Shown: positions 1 to 5,824 of the stretch, piece by piece
How the letters are laid out: each line of letters opens with the position of its first letter
Position numbering within the stretch: the first letter of the stretch is position 1
Assembly (NCBI GenBank): GCA_030746295.1
Contig: JASLMY010000277.1
Coordinates: 1-5,824, forward strand
Reading direction: 5' to 3'
Source: Alphaproteobacteria bacterium
GTDB taxonomy: Bacteria; Pseudomonadota; Alphaproteobacteria; GCA-2731375
DNA: 5,824 bases
Translations under genes and position numbers: made by a program
The notes under the pieces: generated by a model
Databases searched by the model: none
What the model was told of the DNA's origin: nothing
Seen by the model: the letters and a program-made list of their open reading frames with translations, nothing else

Positions 1-591
1 GTCGGCTCGGCCGCCGAGCAAGAAGGCCGGCAAGCGCAACAGTTTCTCCTTCCAGGGGGCGCCCGCCTCGGCGGTGACGGCACGCCCGGACTTCGGCGAG
101 ACATAGGCCAAGCCCTCGGCCGCACCGGTCATGGCGCAGGCGGAGAGATTGAGGCCGAAACCGAGCTCTTGCAGGAGGCCGAGCTCGAAGCGGACGTAAA
201 CGGCCGGCCAGGCCTCGGAGCTCCCGAGCGCATCCAGCAGCACGGCCAAAGCATCGAAGATCGGGGCGTGGGGTTCGCGCTCGGGCAGCGTCGCCTCGAG
301 CACGGCGCAGGCTGCGGAGAGGCCGGCCAGAGGCGCCGGCAGCGCCATCAGCTCGGCCGCCCGGGCCCGCGTCAGCTCGACCGTGTAGCTGCCCAAGTGC
401 TCCGCCAGCCGCGCCCGCCATTCGGCATGAACCTCGTTGCCGGCCTGCAGGACGCCGCGCTGGCGCCGCCCCGCCCCGCCCCTGACCAGGCCTGCGTGGC
501 GGCCGTGCGCGCGGGTCAGCAGCGAGACGACCGCACCCGTCTCGCCATGCTTGCGAACCGCCAGGACGATGCCGTCGTCGCGCCATTGCAT
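1..591 (-). CDS. recO: DNA repair protein RecO, 5' part (C-terminus outside window)
   Basis: RecO helps RecF and RecR load RecA onto SSB-coated single-stranded DNA during recombinational repair. The frame runs open from an ATG at 591 to the window edge, giving 197 residues with no stop; family members are usually about 240-250 residues, so roughly the last fifth is missing. The N-terminus MQWRDDGIVLAVRKHGETGA is the family's characteristic OB-fold start, followed by a GRHAGLVRGG segment, WRARLAEHLG, a helical middle, and CAMTG...LAYVSPKSGRAV near residues 150-170. No in-frame start lies close upstream and the start matches the family, although no good Shine-Dalgarno is visible (ACAAGACCCCC precedes the ATG). 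It lies 51 bases downstream of the YqaE-like gene with no convincing terminator between, so it may be co-transcribed with the cassette. Identification is from recall of the family. Confidence 0.93.
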   Translation of the reverse strand, partial: MQWRDDGIVLAVRKHGETGAVVSLLTRAHGRHAGLVRGGAGRRQRGVLQAGNEVHAEWRARLAEHLGSYTVELTRARAAELMALPAPLAGLSAACAVLEATLPEREPHAPIFDALAVLLDALGSSEAWPAVYVRFELGLLQELGFGLNLSACAMTGAAEGLAYVSPKSGRAVTAEAGAPWKEKLLRLPAFLLGGRAD

Positions 592-642: not shown

Positions 643-831
643 TCAGGAAAGACCGGCGTCGCGGAGCTTCTCGTCGGTCCGATACTGGCTCAAAGCATAG
701 ACCGCCCAAAGCGCCGCCGGCAGCCAGCCGATCAGCGTCACCTGCAGGATCAGGCAGACGATGCCGGCGAGCGGCCGTCCGATGGTGAAGAACAGCAGAA
801 AGGGCAGGAAGATCGCGATGATGAGGCGCAC
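643..831 (-). CDS. YqaE/Pmp3 family small membrane protein
   Basis: This 62-residue hydrophobic peptide has two predicted membrane segments (about residues 3-22 and 25-48) joined by a short GRPLAG turn and followed by a polar tail (QYRTDEKLRDAGLS). The size and the pattern LPFLLFF...G...GWLPAALWAVYAL match the YqaE/Pmp3 (UPF0057) family, whose members are linked to membrane potential and salt or stress tolerance in yeast and plants; the bacterial role is poorly defined. Translation probably starts at GTG 831: only 9 bases separate it from the TGA of the metacaspase gene (841-843), and a GAGG overlapping that TGA sits 7 bases before the GTG. This implies translational coupling and one transcript. 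An ATG start is not available. The family call is by recognition and the function is not inferable here. Confidence 0.85.
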   Translation of the reverse strand: MRLIIAIFLPFLLFFTIGRPLAGIVCLILQVTLIGWLPAALWAVYALSQYRTDEKLRDAGLS

Positions 832-840
832 GCCCGTCCC

Positions 841-2037
841 TCAGCCGCCGTCGCGCAGGATGAAGGTGAAATCGCCGCCGCCTTCGTCGCCCGCTTTGGA
901 GATGGTGCCGAACTCGGGCTTCTGATCGGAATTGTTGGTCACGGCGCGGACGAAGCGGCCGTAGAGCTCCGACGAGGTGATATAGGGCCGGTCGTTCTGG
1001 CCAAGGGTCTTCAAAAGGTAGTGGGCGAAGACCGAATGGCCGCCGGAGCCCGAATCCGCCACCGGCTCGGTGCCGCCCGAGGAGATCACCTTGCGCGACC
1101 AGTGCGAATCGATCTCTGTGAAGTAGCGGTCTTCGGGGATCGGCTGGTTCGCCGGCGCGCTGCGCGTCAACGAGCCGGAGAAGCAGGAATCCGCGATTAC
1201 CAACACGTGCTTCGCGGGCAGGCCCTTGAGCTGGCGGCGAACGTCGTCGTTGGCGATCCAGGTGGAGGTCTTGTCGGCGGCGGCGTCGACCGGCTGCCAG
1301 AAGCCCTCGCCCGTGGATTTGTCGATCTGGCCGTGGCCCGCATAGTAGATCACCAGCCGGTCGTCGACATCGAGCTCGGACCTTAGCCCCTCGATAGCGC
1401 CCAGGATGGTGTTGCGGTCGGCGTCGAGCAGCAGTTGCACGTTTTCCTTATCGAAGTCGTAGCGCTCGACCAGCAGGTCGGCCAGCGCCCTGGCGTCGTT
1501 TCTCGCGGTTTTGAGCGGCGGCAGGTCGCGATAGGCGTTGTTGCCGATCACGAGCGCGAAGTTGCGGCCCTCGATGCTGGGCCGGTTGAGGCCGCCGACC
1601 CGGACCACGACCTCGTCGCCGACGCAGTTGCCGGCCGCATCACAGGCCTCTAGGACAAATTGCTGCCGGCCTTCCTTCTCGCTCGGCACGTCGATGCGAA
1701 AGGCGAGGCTGTGCTTGGCGACGGCCTTCGTGCCCTCGGCCAGGCGGAAGAGCGTCGCCGGCTCGCCGTTGACCTTGAGCCGGGGCGGGCTGCCGTCGTC
1801 GCCGACGACGCCGACGATGCGGGCGGTCTCGCCGATCGGCACCTCCTTCGGCGCCTCGACCTCGATCAGCGGCAAGGCCGTGTCCTGTCCGCCTTGCTGG
1901 CCGCGCGCCAAGGCGTCGATCTGCTTCTGCAACGCGGCAATCTCGGCATCCCGGCCCGCCGGCTTGGCGGCGGCTGTCGGCGCGGCCTCGGAACCAGTCG
2001 TCGACGCCTTGGGCGACGCGCTGCGCGTCGTGGCCAC
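841..2037 (-). CDS. Metacaspase-like C14 caspase-domain protein (C-terminal part of an interrupted gene)
   Basis: This 398-residue frame starts at GTG 2037. Residues 1-55 are an Ala/Ser/Thr-rich linker with a short coiled-coil-like stretch (DAEIAALQKQIDALARG). Residues about 57-148 look like an Ig-like beta sandwich with two close cysteines (C132, C138) that could form a disulfide. Residues about 158-395 are a C14 caspase fold: FALVIGNNAY, then ARNDA, the catalytic-His motif YYAGHG (H235), the catalytic-Cys motif DSCFSG (C285), and a p10-like part with ISSGGTEPVADSG...GHSVFAHYLL. Both catalytic residues are present, so the domain could be active; metacaspases generally cleave after Arg or Lys, but specificity cannot be read here. 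GTG 2037 is only the first usable start after the amber codon at 2191-2193. It has no good ribosome site, and the in-frame codons before it look coding, so the native protein probably began at 2805 with a signal peptide. Made from 2037 alone, the protein would lack an export signal. Confidence 0.85.
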   Translation of the reverse strand: MATTRSASPKASTTGSEAAPTAAAKPAGRDAEIAALQKQIDALARGQQGGQDTALPLIEVEAPKEVPIGETARIVGVVGDDGSPPRLKVNGEPATLFRLAEGTKAVAKHSLAFRIDVPSEKEGRQQFVLEACDAAGNCVGDEVVVRVGGLNRPSIEGRNFALVIGNNAYRDLPPLKTARNDARALADLLVERYDFDKENVQLLLDADRNTILGAIEGLRSELDVDDRLVIYYAGHGQIDKSTGEGFWQPVDAAADKTSTWIANDDVRRQLKGLPAKHVLVIADSCFSGSLTRSAPANQPIPEDRYFTEIDSHWSRKVISSGGTEPVADSGSGGHSVFAHYLLKTLGQNDRPYITSSELYGRFVRAVTNNSDQKPEFGTISKAGDEGGGDFTFILRDGG

Positions 2038-2190
2038 TTGCGTTTCTTTGCCGGCGGAAAGCTCGGCCCGGACCTCGGCGATATAGGCCGTCGCCTCCTC
2101 CCAGAATTCCGCCCCCGCCGGGCCGGCAAGGTGTATCAGCGGGTCGAGTTTCTTGACGCCCGCCTCCAGCCTGCCGAGACGCGCCTTGGC
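2038..2190 (-). other. Coding-like 51-codon stretch between the TAG and the next start
   Basis: These 153 bases are open in the frame of both flanking parts and contain no ATG, GTG or TTG in that frame, so they are translated only if the TAG is read through. The peptide is helical and charged. Its AKARLGRLEAGVKKL segment followed by EFWEEATAYIAEVRAEL resembles the K-R-x-L...L / xPxW-xxA pattern of the module repeats, suggesting a degenerate second module spanning the stop. Confidence 0.6.
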
Positions 2191-2193
2191 CTA
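2191..2193 (-). other. In-frame TAG splitting the metacaspase gene
   Basis: The codon series is GGC AAT CAG AGG TAG GCC AAG GCG CGT, the same frame on both sides. The neighbouring 691-residue gene also ends in TAG (2926-2928), apparently as a real stop, while era ends in TAA and the remaining genes in TGA, so amber is not obviously reassigned in this genome. Confidence 0.85.
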
Positions 2194-2805
2194 CCTCTGA
2201 TTGCCGGCAGCTCGCACCCGATCGATCTCGGCCCGCTGCTTGGCGAAGGACGTTCTTGCCCATGCCAGGGCCTTCTTCGCGATCGCGGGTGCGAGGCTCT
2301 TGTAGCGCCTCTCGAAGTCGGCGATCGAGCGATGCTCGGGGTCGAGCGCCTTCAGACGGTCGAGCCCGCGACGCACCTGGGCGATATCGATGACCGCCAA
2401 GGCGAGTTTGCTCGACATCCGGAACCGGGCTCGGCCGAGCGCGCGCTCAATCTGCTGCGCCAACACCTGAGCTTGCTTGTTGCCCGGCTTCGTCTCGTTC
2501 TTCTCGCCGACGAGCCGGCGAAGATCCTCCCGCAGGGCCACCAACCGCTCGTCGGCGGCTTTCCAAGAGGGGTGGTCCTTGTTCCGGGACTTCCCCAGCC
2601 GTCCGGCCGTGATTTCGAGAAGCTTCAGGATCCGCTTGGCGCTCGCCTTGCGGGCCGGCGTCAAGCGCGCCGTCTGGGCCTCGTAGCGCTTCAGGTCGGC
2701 GACGGCACTCCGGATCATGGCGTCCGCCGGCGCCGCTGCCGAGACGGCAGGCGCCCAGAGCATCGCCGACGACAGGACCAGCACTATAAGGAGACGGCGC
2801 AACAT
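2191..2805 (-). CDS. Exported helical-repeat N-terminal part of the interrupted metacaspase gene
   Basis: From ATG 2805 this frame gives 204 residues ending at TAG 2191-2193. Residues 1-24 are a clear signal peptide (MLRR, then a hydrophobic stretch, then APAVSA). Residues about 28-100 are one copy of a helical module ending in DHPSW (W81), strongly similar to the first module of the upstream 691-residue protein (both contain APAD near the start, a K-R-x-L-K-L-L stretch and a HPSW). Residues 105-204 are charged and helical. The frame is also open from a GTG at 2904, but that start would put 33 non-family-like residues ahead of a good signal peptide, so 2805 is preferred despite a weak ribosome site. 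A promoter-like pair lies about 60-85 bases upstream. It probably encodes the front of one protein with the caspase-domain frame downstream. If translated alone it would be a periplasmic or secreted module protein without protease activity. Confidence 0.75.
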   Translation of the reverse strand: MLRRLLIVLVLSSAMLWAPAVSAAAPADAMIRSAVADLKRYEAQTARLTPARKASAKRILKLLEITAGRLGKSRNKDHPSWKAADERLVALREDLRRLVGEKNETKPGNKQAQVLAQQIERALGRARFRMSSKLALAVIDIAQVRRGLDRLKALDPEHRSIADFERRYKSLAPAIAKKALAWARTSFAKQRAEIDRVRAAGNQR

Positions 2806-2925: not shown

Positions 2926-5001
2926 CTACTCGTCGATGTTCTCCTTCAGGATCTCGTTCTGCTGGTGGCGGCCGCTGATGATCCAGACCTCGGTCGGCGT
3001 CGTCGAGCCGCCCTTGTAGAAGTATTTCAGCGTCGTGTACCAGATGAAATACTTGTCGCCGGCCTTCTCGGCGGTGGCCACCTGATACTGATCCCAGACG
3101 TAGTGATAGACGGTAATAGTGCCGCTCGAGGCCGAGCCTTCCGTCTTCTCCTTGCGCCGCACCTTGCTGTTGATGACCAGCCGCTCGGCCGGCGTGATGC
3201 TCTTATATTTCGGGTTGGCGAGGGTCTTCTTGGCGATCTCGATGTACTTCTCGTCCGTCATCGCCGGCTTCGGCATGCGGCTCTCGGCCAGCGCCTTCTT
3301 GTACATGCCGTCGTAGGCGGCGATGGCCTGCTCTAGCTTGGCCTTCTGCGCCGCCCGGTCGGGCCCGCCTTGGCGGCCCATCGCCTGATCGAGCACGGCC
3401 GCCGTCTCGATGCGCGTGACGCCTTCCCGGAGCTGCTTGAGGGTCTTGTCCCGCTGCTCCGCCCCCAGCAAACGGTTGGCGACGTGGTCTCGATCGTTGA
3501 CGTCCGTCGTGGCCAGGAACTCGGCCTGCTGGATGGCGTTGACCGACCAGGCATCGACCGCCTGGACGGTCCGGGCCGCGCTCTCTTTCGCCTTGCCGGG
3601 CTTCTCGCCGATCCAATAGGTGAGGCGCGAGAGGCGCTGCGAGGCAATGAGCGGGGTCCGCCCCTTGATCAGCTTCAGGTAAGCGACGTCCTCGGCGCTT
3701 GCTTTCTCGACCTTTTGCAGCGTCTCCGCATAGCCGCGAATCTGCTCGGCGGTGAAGGGCTCGCGTAAGGGCTGCGGTACGCGAAGGCTCTTGCCGCGGG
3801 CCTCGATCGCGTCGACCCGCGCCTTGACGTCGCCGAGCTTCTTGTGCTCCTCGATGGCCGCGTTGATGCGGGCGACCAGCTTCTCGTCCGCCGCCCGCGA
3901 GGCGGCGATGAACTTCTGGACTTCCGCGTGCTTCGGCGCGCCGAGGGCGGCGGCGGCGTCCCAGAGGTACTTCAACTCGGCGCGGGCGGCATCGCTCTTG
4001 GTCTTCATCAAGAGCTCGAGCTCGCTCAGGCCGTCGTGCCGCTTCGCGGTCTTGGCGAGGTCAGCGTTGATGCCCTGCATCAGGGTCGTGACGATGTGGT
4101 CGTTGATGCGGCGGAATGTCGCGACCGTGTCCTTCCAGACCGGGTGCGCCTTGTCCTGGGCCCCGTTCAAGACCTTGGCGATGCGGCCGAGGTCTTTGTG
4201 AAATCGCATGCCACCGCGCCTGTCGCCGGGACGCAGGTTCTTGACCTGGCGGTCGATCATGTCGAGCTCGCGGCCTGCCCGCTCCACGTTCGGGTCCGCC
4301 GGAGCAGCGCCGCCGCCGCCGCTCTGTGCCGGCTTGGTGCCCGCCGGTGCGGCGGCGTTGGCCTTGGCCGCGATCTTCTGGTTGAGGGCGTTGTAGGCCT
4401 TGGCCGCCTTGATCCAATCGGGACTCTTCTGGTCGGGATAGGCCTTGAGCGAGGCCGCGACCTTGTTGAGCTCGCCGATATGCTGCCGGCCCTTAGCCTT
4501 GTCGCCGGGCGCCATCTGATCGACGGCGGCGCCGATCCGCCGGATCTCGGACATCGCTTGGGCCAGCTTGGGATCGGAGGGCGCGCCGCCGACCGGCGCC
4601 GCCGGCTTGACCGGTGCCGGTTGGCTGGCGGCAGCCGGTGCCGCGCCCGGGCGCTTGCCGGCGGCGAGGTCGGTGAGGCGCTGCTTCAGTGTCTGCAAGC
4701 GCTGGTTGGTCTCCACCCAAGAGGGATGCGACTTGTTGGCCGAGCCGTTGAGGCGCTGTTCGGTCAGCCCCAAGAGCTTCAGGGTCCGCTTGGCGCCGGA
4801 AGCGCCGGGCCTCATGGTTGCCGCCTGTTTCTCGAACCGCGCGATGTCGGCGATCGCCGCCTTGATGGCGTTGTCCGCCGGTGCCGTCGCCTGCGCGAGC
4901 CGAACGAGCGGCCGCTCGGGCGCCGCCCGTGACGGTGCGGCCGGCAGCATCAGGATGGCGACGAGGCCGCCGATCAGAACAGTCGGAAGCAAGCGAAGCA
5001 T
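2926..5001 (-). CDS. Exported helical protein with three tandem HPxW-type modules, unknown function
   Basis: This 691-residue protein starts at ATG 5001, preceded by a strong GAGGAGA ribosome site 5 bases away. Residues 1-26 form a signal peptide (LLPTVLIGGLVAILMLP...SRA). Three related helical modules follow at about 43-115, 143-215 and 236-306, each with a conserved Pro-x-Trp about 50 residues in (HPSW ending W95, SPDW ending W196, HPVW ending W289), separated by Ala/Pro/Gly-rich linkers. Residues about 310-600 are long charged helices with no motif I recognise. The last 70 residues switch to an aromatic, beta-like segment (VYHYVWDQYQV, YFIWYTTLKYFYKGG, TEVWIISGR) that could be a small binding domain. 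The first module is closely similar to that of the downstream metacaspase gene. It is probably periplasmic or secreted and may act as scaffold, partner or regulator of that protease; this is inferred from adjacency and shared modules. It ends in TAG. Confidence 0.85.
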   Translation of the reverse strand: MLRLLPTVLIGGLVAILMLPAAPSRAAPERPLVRLAQATAPADNAIKAAIADIARFEKQAATMRPGASGAKRTLKLLGLTEQRLNGSANKSHPSWVETNQRLQTLKQRLTDLAAGKRPGAAPAAASQPAPVKPAAPVGGAPSDPKLAQAMSEIRRIGAAVDQMAPGDKAKGRQHIGELNKVAASLKAYPDQKSPDWIKAAKAYNALNQKIAAKANAAAPAGTKPAQSGGGGAAPADPNVERAGRELDMIDRQVKNLRPGDRRGGMRFHKDLGRIAKVLNGAQDKAHPVWKDTVATFRRINDHIVTTLMQGINADLAKTAKRHDGLSELELLMKTKSDAARAELKYLWDAAAALGAPKHAEVQKFIAASRAADEKLVARINAAIEEHKKLGDVKARVDAIEARGKSLRVPQPLREPFTAEQIRGYAETLQKVEKASAEDVAYLKLIKGRTPLIASQRLSRLTYWIGEKPGKAKESAARTVQAVDAWSVNAIQQAEFLATTDVNDRDHVANRLLGAEQRDKTLKQLREGVTRIETAAVLDQAMGRQGGPDRAAQKAKLEQAIAAYDGMYKKALAESRMPKPAMTDEKYIEIAKKTLANPKYKSITPAERLVINSKVRRKEKTEGSASSGTITVYHYVWDQYQVATAEKAGDKYFIWYTTLKYFYKGGSTTPTEVWIISGRHQQNEILKENIDE

Positions 5002-5053: not shown

Positions 5054-5431
5054 TCAGGACGCGGCGCGAACGATCGCCATCGCGATCACCGAGACGGCGG
5101 CCAGAATGACGACGATGCCGAGCGCATAGATCAGGTATTTGACCCTGAAATGAGAGGAATCGAAGCTGATCCGCGTCTCCTGTTCGGGTGTCACGTAGAC
5201 CGAGTAGAAGCTGTCCAGGAAACCCTTCTGAAAGACATTCTCGGCGCCGAGCTCGTGCGTCTCCGGCGGTTTGCGAAAGAGCCAACGCGAGCCTACGACC
5301 TCGACCTTGCCGGCGACCGGTCCGGCGCCGGCGGCCGGTTCGGCGGAAAAGCGGACGAGCTGCGGAATGCTGTCGAAGACCAGATGCAGAACCCGCCTGC
5401 GCTCGCCCTTCCCGATTGTGATGGGTTTCAT
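5054..5431 (-). CDS. Hypothetical protein with a single C-terminal membrane anchor
   Basis: This 125-residue protein starts at ATG 5431 and is of a family I do not recognise. Residues 1-95 are soluble and mixed beta-like (RRRVLHLVFDSIPQLVRF, KVEVVGSRWLFRKPP, FYSVYVTPEQETRISFD). Residues about 98-121 are a single strongly hydrophobic helix (YLIYALGIVVILAAVSVIAM) ending in VRAAS. With no N-terminal signal this looks like a tail-anchored inner-membrane protein whose soluble part faces the cytoplasm. It is the first gene after era, 68 bases downstream, and precedes the 691-residue gene by 52 bases, so it probably heads the cassette transcript. A perfect inverted repeat abuts its start codon, and the ribosome site is poor (CCGGA immediately upstream, GGGGG farther off). 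Base composition and frame are consistent with a real gene, but the function is unknown. Confidence 0.7.
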   Translation of the reverse strand: MKPITIGKGERRRVLHLVFDSIPQLVRFSAEPAAGAGPVAGKVEVVGSRWLFRKPPETHELGAENVFQKGFLDSFYSVYVTPEQETRISFDSSHFRVKYLIYALGIVVILAAVSVIAMAIVRAAS

Positions 5432-5499: not shown

Positions 5500-5824
5500 T
5501 TACCGCGGATATTCCAGGCCCATCTCGCGATAGCGCTCGGGGTCGTCCTGCCAGTGCGGGCGGATCTTGACGAAAAGGAAGAGATGGATTTTGCGCCCCA
5601 ATGCCTTGCCCAGCTCCTCGCGGGCCCGCGCACCGACCCGCTTCACCATCCGCCCGCCCTTGCCCAAGACCATGCCCTTGTGGGTCTCGCGGGCGACATA
5701 GATCACCTGCTCGACGCGGGCGCTGCCGTCGGGCCGGTCCTGCCAGGCCTCGGTCTCGACCGTGAGCGCGTAGGGAAGCTCTTGATGCAGCTCCAGGAAG
5801 AGCTGCTCGCGGGTGATCTCCGCC
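5500..5824 (-). CDS. era: GTPase Era, C-terminal KH domain (5' end outside window)
   Basis: Era is an essential GTPase that binds the 3' end of 16S rRNA through its C-terminal KH domain during 30S subunit maturation. The window holds the last 107 residues and the TAA stop at 5500-5502; the full protein is normally about 300 residues, so the GTPase domain lies outside. Visible features are AEITREQLFL...ELPYALTVE, then YVARETHKGMVLGKGGRM with the KH GxxG loop (GKGG), then VGARAREELGKALGRKIHLF and the closing LFVKIRPHWQDDPERYREMG. This matches the family closely. In many alphaproteobacteria the order is rnc, era, recO; here four other genes follow instead of recO. Confidence 0.95.
   Translation of the reverse strand, partial: AEITREQLFLELHQELPYALTVETEAWQDRPDGSARVEQVIYVARETHKGMVLGKGGRMVKRVGARAREELGKALGRKIHLFLFVKIRPHWQDDPERYREMGLEYPR

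Follow-up and report, generated by a model that had tools for sequence, protein, structure and literature searches.

Does a lone amber codon inside a bacterial caspase-homologue gene betray a switch, an error in the sequence, or simply a gene that has just been lost? The question is raised by a stretch of 5,824 nucleotides (67% G+C; hereafter the window) from contig JASLMY010000277.1 of an Alphaproteobacteria bacterium (assembly GCA_030746295.1), on which all the genes listed lie on the minus strand and one of them, a caspase-homologue gene with a signal-like start, is interrupted by an in-frame TAG. The explanation we propose, and consider probable, is that this gene was recently hit by one nonsense substitution at codon 205 and that the window holds a young disrupted allele which has not yet decayed. 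What is observed is the stop, the relatives that are single and uninterrupted, the coding signal on both sides of the stop and the undecayed catalytic domain. The starting point would have been a gene for an exported, Ig-linked caspase homologue; the interrupted allele would yield at most an exported helical fragment of 204 residues, and active exported protease would be scarce or absent. The mutation would then be real in the organism, recent and inactivating.

One stop codon in a coding frame

By script count, the 654 codons of the frame 2805-844 contain one stop, the TAG at 2191-2193, which separates a part with a hydrophobic, signal-like start and a helical module from an Ig-like and caspase part. 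A first-pass annotation, made from the sequence alone, had rightly described a single TAG splitting an otherwise intact frame; the coordinates that it gave, 2038-2805, cover the module part and the 51 codons that follow the stop, but the whole gene extends over 841-2805. The relatives P0002 and P0004 begin at the same alignment column as ATG 2805. Since 155 of the 654 codons are one step away from a stop, a random nonsense mutation is easily obtained in this gene.

The 51 codons after the stop had been called protein-like and devoid of a start, and both statements hold: there is no in-frame ATG, GTG or TTG within 150 bases after the TAG, the next being GTG 2037, 153 bases on. An open run of this length is unremarkable by itself (chance 0.31 at the base composition). 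Its codon usage, scored from four other frames of the window (the neighbouring 691-aa protein, RecO, the 125-aa frame and Era), gives 0.317 per codon for this frame, the other five ranging from -0.91 to 0.09; the in-frame value is attained by 0 of 5000 shuffles, which preserve base composition only. The 101 codons before the TAG score 0.259, again with 0 of 5000 shuffles at that level.

The caspase part is preserved, as had been claimed from its His and Cys motifs. It matches Peptidase_C14 (PF00656) with an E-value of 5.7e-22 and 79 bits, above the cut-off of 21.4, over positions 1-222 of the 233 of the profile; the catalytic pair is kept in AGHG (His 491) and DSCFSG (Cys 541), both invariant in an alignment of five sequences. 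The cysteine pair announced for the Ig-like domain is likewise invariant in five aligned sequences, the domain itself giving no Ig match in the Pfam scan. At the 77 caspase columns where the other sequences agree at 97% or more, the window differs at none; 31 of the 50 sequences compared also score zero there, which is normal for an intact gene. In relative-rate comparisons of the caspase part against three outgroups, the window has fewer changes than P0002 each time (7 v 11, 6 v 11 and 7 v 12). The protease domain thus appears, as far as its sequence can tell, to bear no sign of long relaxed selection.

A structure model that spans the stop by means of a placeholder residue, built from a 27-sequence alignment (mean predicted local distance difference test, pLDDT, 86; predicted template modelling score, pTM, 0.47), displays helices from 108 to 256, with ten-residue block means of 83-95 across residues 111-250 and of 57 and 58 in the flanking blocks. 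Codon 205 falls at the beginning of the predicted helix 203-219, within this confident region. The TAG would therefore cut inside a predicted helical region, and we take this as supporting evidence only, long helices being easily predicted with confidence. The 50 fold matches listed comprise the MALT1 paracaspase, metacaspases, caspases and one Geobacter protein; the output carries no match ranges, and these matches presumably correspond to the caspase part.

Relatives and the segment that holds the stop

Searched with the post-TAG part, the protein database gave at least 608 matches at E <= 0.001 (7994 candidates scored), and the best 120 of the 608 were examined. Four of these 120 (P0002, P0004, P0006 and P0014) also match the module part, each as one single uninterrupted protein. 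The DNA of P0004 was seen in a metagenome genome labelled Alphaproteobacteria, the one locus of the 79 found that was read at the DNA level for this comparison (L001). P0002 (528 aa, metagenomic), the best-scoring relative among the matches listed besides P0001, the database entry discussed below, has the same start and the same module (67% identity over residues 1-103) and shows 84% identity across 83% of the query 841-2190; unlike the window gene, it is uninterrupted and carries a short charged linker in place of the helical segment of ~155 residues that holds the TAG. A fifth, more distant module-caspase, on contig C1 of genome G001, is a 397-codon open frame without a stop.

Among 385 genomes of the class, the caspase part is matched at E <= 1e-90 in five, by seven matches of which none has an inner stop; at most four candidates were scored per genome, and four of the five positive genomes had already been reached through the 79 loci. 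The module part alone is matched in 3 of the 385. The loci read show no case of a module gene standing by itself immediately ahead of a caspase gene, and the arrangement of two separate genes, which the first-pass annotation had named as the finding that would speak against an interrupted gene, was not encountered within this small sample of loci.

A caspase remnant was met in genome G002 (L086; contig C21, 17008-17406): some 130 C-terminal residues with the catalytic Cys kept. It is the one of 18 genome caspase matches with an inner TAG, and it has several stops further upstream. The same genome also carries a longer uninterrupted caspase copy.

The segment around the stop appears peculiar to the window in the searches made, which were of limited sensitivity. 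Codons 104 to ~260 are missing from P0002, P0004, P0006 and P0014, which have short linkers there instead, and for this reason the TAG position cannot be compared in them. With BLAST, the segment (2038-2496) gave a best E-value of 0.42 against the 120 fetched proteins, P0001 aside. Two protein searches limited to it, one with flanks and one without, found no match among ~8000 scored candidates each, an absence that is weak evidence since the search with flanks was insensitive enough to miss P0002 as well, which has the module. In six genomes the segment gave weak matches only, the best (E 0.0012) with two inner stops. A by-eye suggestion that codons 104-256 hold two diverged copies of the module was rejected, an eight-copy profile reaching 1.2 bits at best (E 0.16); the model shows further helices there, for which we claim no homology to the module. 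It is from the coding signal and from relatives with a single gene, rather than from an aligned sense codon, that the gene is taken to have once been uninterrupted.

Explanations for the stop

Of the two alternatives that the first-pass annotation had put forward, a fresh nonsense mutation or sequence error on one side and a switch by readthrough or reinitiation on the other, it is the former that agrees with the single-gene state of the module-bearing relatives, the coding-like flanks and the undecayed catalytic domain. The presence of one lesion only in 654 codons supports a young mutation, and the fact that the TAG falls in a stretch for which the searches gave no relative was also counted in its favour. 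Several points weigh in the opposite direction. The relatives offer no aligned sense codon at the TAG, the same lack of a relative for the segment being here a weakness. Against two outgroups the window has accumulated more changes than P0002 in the N-terminal module (11 v 3 and 9 v 4) and in the Ig-like domain (7 v 4 and 10 v 5); with the third outgroup it has fewer (3 v 4 and 3 v 9, respectively). Finally, the allele comes from one assembled consensus: the database cluster of P0001 has two member sequences on one contig, one of which is seen here.

An error of base calling or assembly, which we consider unlikely but which is the rival to be taken most seriously, would mean that in the organism itself a sense codon occupies the site and the full-length exported protease is made. 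It would explain why the gene has no other lesion, none having been seen in the neighbouring frames either, and why the catalytic domain is undecayed; the contig is short, 5,824 bases, and is the one contig of P0001's cluster. Moreover, a substantial share of raw in-frame stops is expected to be artefacts according to Belinky et al. (2021, PMC7918605). By eye, however, the sequence bears no mark of error, the site having neither a homopolymer nor a frame problem.

It is improbable that the two halves are still translated on their own, the module part as an exported protein of 204 aa and the caspase from an internal start, be it GTG 2037 (398 aa) or a later codon. In favour of this, the product from GTG 2037 is the protein database entry for the contig of the window (P0001), and the caspase domain is undecayed. 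This codon is, as had been proposed, the first in-frame start after the stop and would give a product without an export signal, but it is not the sole start: TTG 1875 and GTG 1842 follow, with fair ribosome-site matches (-6.8 and -5.9 kcal/mol). GTG 2037 itself matches weakly (-1.7 kcal/mol) at a distance of 153 bases from the stop, and a protein begun at either of the two later sites would open at the Ig-like domain or within it. Such matches have little power to discriminate: both the start of the gene itself (-2.8) and that of recO (-1.5 kcal/mol) are weak as well, while the 691-aa neighbour reaches -8.9 kcal/mol. None of the three products would carry an export signal, despite the cysteine pair of the family; the stop would fall inside a predicted helix (203-219), in a region modelled as helical with confidence; and of the 120 matches listed, the four that bear the module each have the parts in one undivided gene.

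Could the TAG instead be read through at a low level, so as to set the amount of exported protease? We regard this as most improbable. The one pointer is the undecayed downstream frame, for which a young mutation or an error accounts equally well; Belinky et al. hold that events of this kind occur often in bacteria (PMC7918605). Conservation of the TAG is unsupported, the segment being absent from the four relatives, and in the same paper stops of this type are mostly short-lived (PMC7918605). The window holds no tRNA gene, and TAG is an ordinary stop here, since the 691-aa neighbour and its relative in G001 both end in TAG directly after ENIDE; recoding of TAG was rejected on this latter ground, the gene moreover having one in-frame TAG. 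Nothing specific speaks for regulated readthrough or reinitiation, in view of the missing start within 150 bases after the TAG and the weak match of GTG 2037, so that the switch imagined in the first-pass annotation is not sustained. A bolder form, in which the TAG would be a retained leaky gate, most translation giving an exported decoy of the helical module and a little of it an exported caspase-like protease, with control of dosage, is scarcely credible; were the stop conserved, it would represent a case of readthrough control over a bacterial caspase homologue.

The segment of codons 104-256 might also be a recent insertion or fusion carrying the TAG as the old end of another gene, since it is missing from P0002, P0004, P0006 and P0014 and found no relative in the searches made, but the coding signal, which keeps to one frame before and after the TAG, and the single predicted helical array that spans it leave this very little credit.

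Neighbourhood, module family and known systems

The features of the window are collected in Table 1.

Table 1. Features of the interrupted gene and of the rest of the window
Feature	Position	Strand	Basis or remark
Signal-peptide-like start, codons 1-22	2740-2805	-	by eye; helix 2-16 in model
N-terminal three-helix module, codons 23-102	2500-2739	-	common to four relatives and the 691-aa neighbour
Pre-TAG helical segment, codons 104-204	2194-2496	-	in-frame coding signal; high-confidence helices; no relative found
In-frame TAG, codon 205	2191-2193	-	sequence reading, script count
Open coding-like stretch after TAG, codons 206-256	2038-2190	-	codon usage; helices 203-219, 221-227, 229-256
GTG 2037, first in-frame start after TAG	2035-2037	-	398-aa product (P0001), without export signal
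Ig-like beta domain, codons 308-405 (bounds by eye)	1591-1884	-	CDAAGNC-type cysteine pair; model strands
Caspase (Peptidase_C14) domain, codons 412-650	856-1572	-	His 491 (1333-1335), Cys 541 (1183-1185)
TGA, normal gene end	841-843	-	protein comparison
Era, C-terminal part	5500-5823	-	Pfam/NCBIfam scan, ORF (open reading frame) list
125-aa protein, no assigned family	5054-5431	-	between era and module protein
691-aa module protein	2926-5001	-	neighbour of caspase gene
Interrupted caspase gene, ATG 2805 to TGA	841-2805	-	654 codons (2805-844) plus stop
62-aa Pmp3-like protein	643-831	-	Pfam/NCBIfam scan, ORF list
RecO, start of gene	1-591	-	Pfam/NCBIfam scan, ORF list

RecO is matched at E 1e-50 in 211 of the 385 genomes of the class, the best with 70% identity in a genome (G007) that gives no caspase match at E 1e-60. 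Look-ups with the window DNA among plasmids ('near' mode) and viral contigs returned no match in either. The 125-aa protein has by eye a C-terminal hydrophobic stretch and no Pfam or NCBIfam match.

The 691-aa protein looks exported and contains three copies of a helical module of ~75 residues. The module profile reaches 110.9 bits in the caspase gene, which together with the three copies of the neighbour was among its seeds; two non-seed copies were found at 93.1 and 79.8 bits in the G001 relative of the 691-aa protein, which is 60% identical over residues 213-691 (52% over 124-691 in a second comparison). A 549-aa protein in genome G355 matches the module and, by eye, also the C-terminal end of the 691-aa protein. 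On contig C1 of G001 (915778-918893; L100/L103), the 691-aa relative lies head to head with the module-caspase gene, whereas the pair of the window is in tandem. That the two are linked in two genomes is a hint, short of proof, that the module protein and the module-caspase act together. The Pfam, NCBIfam and PADLOC scans gave no match for the 204-aa module part or for the 691-aa neighbour, the PADLOC scan having covered the caspase and this neighbour, and the module family common to both merits annotation; its link with module-caspases is a mildly interesting side observation.

As found, a single-stop allele in a metagenomic gene is of little consequence, and the event is ordinary: it is not evidence for a new control mechanism. 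According to Belinky et al. 2021 (PMC7918605), in-frame stops occur widely among bacterial genes, which keep a ratio of nonsynonymous to synonymous substitution rates (dN/dS) below 1, many raw stops may be artefacts, and persistence tends to the time scale of population polymorphism. The window fits this picture, having one stop inside a gene that is otherwise intact and apparently under constraint, and differs from their cases in that the searches made gave no relative with the segment in which an orthologous stop could be sought.

As for the protein, the caspase domain, its fold and its His-Cys pair are those of the bacterial caspase homologues (Peptidase_C14, orthocaspases and metacaspases), of which the Alphaproteobacteria are among the richest groups in the parts consulted of two surveys (PMC6426788, PMC4933709); the window gene departs from the homologues described there by its signal-like start, its N-terminal helical module, its Ig-like domain with a cysteine pair and its TAG. 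Type I and II metacaspases and orthocaspases are told apart by the presence and distance of a p10 domain, according to the excerpt of the first survey (PMC6426788), and 'metacaspase' is a loose label for the window gene, assigned without a p10 profile. Of the more specific families, NCBIfam caspase_w_EACC1 (NF047832) gives 91.7 bits, below its cut-off of 140, and the PADLOC anti-phage caspase 46.4 bits over a part of the model only (3-130 of 453); the 691-aa neighbour gives no PADLOC match. The MALT1 paracaspase and fungal and plant metacaspases stand among the best fold matches (8v4x, 7qp0) and the best sequence matches (6w8s, 3v4o), with 12-24% identity among the 50 fold matches listed.
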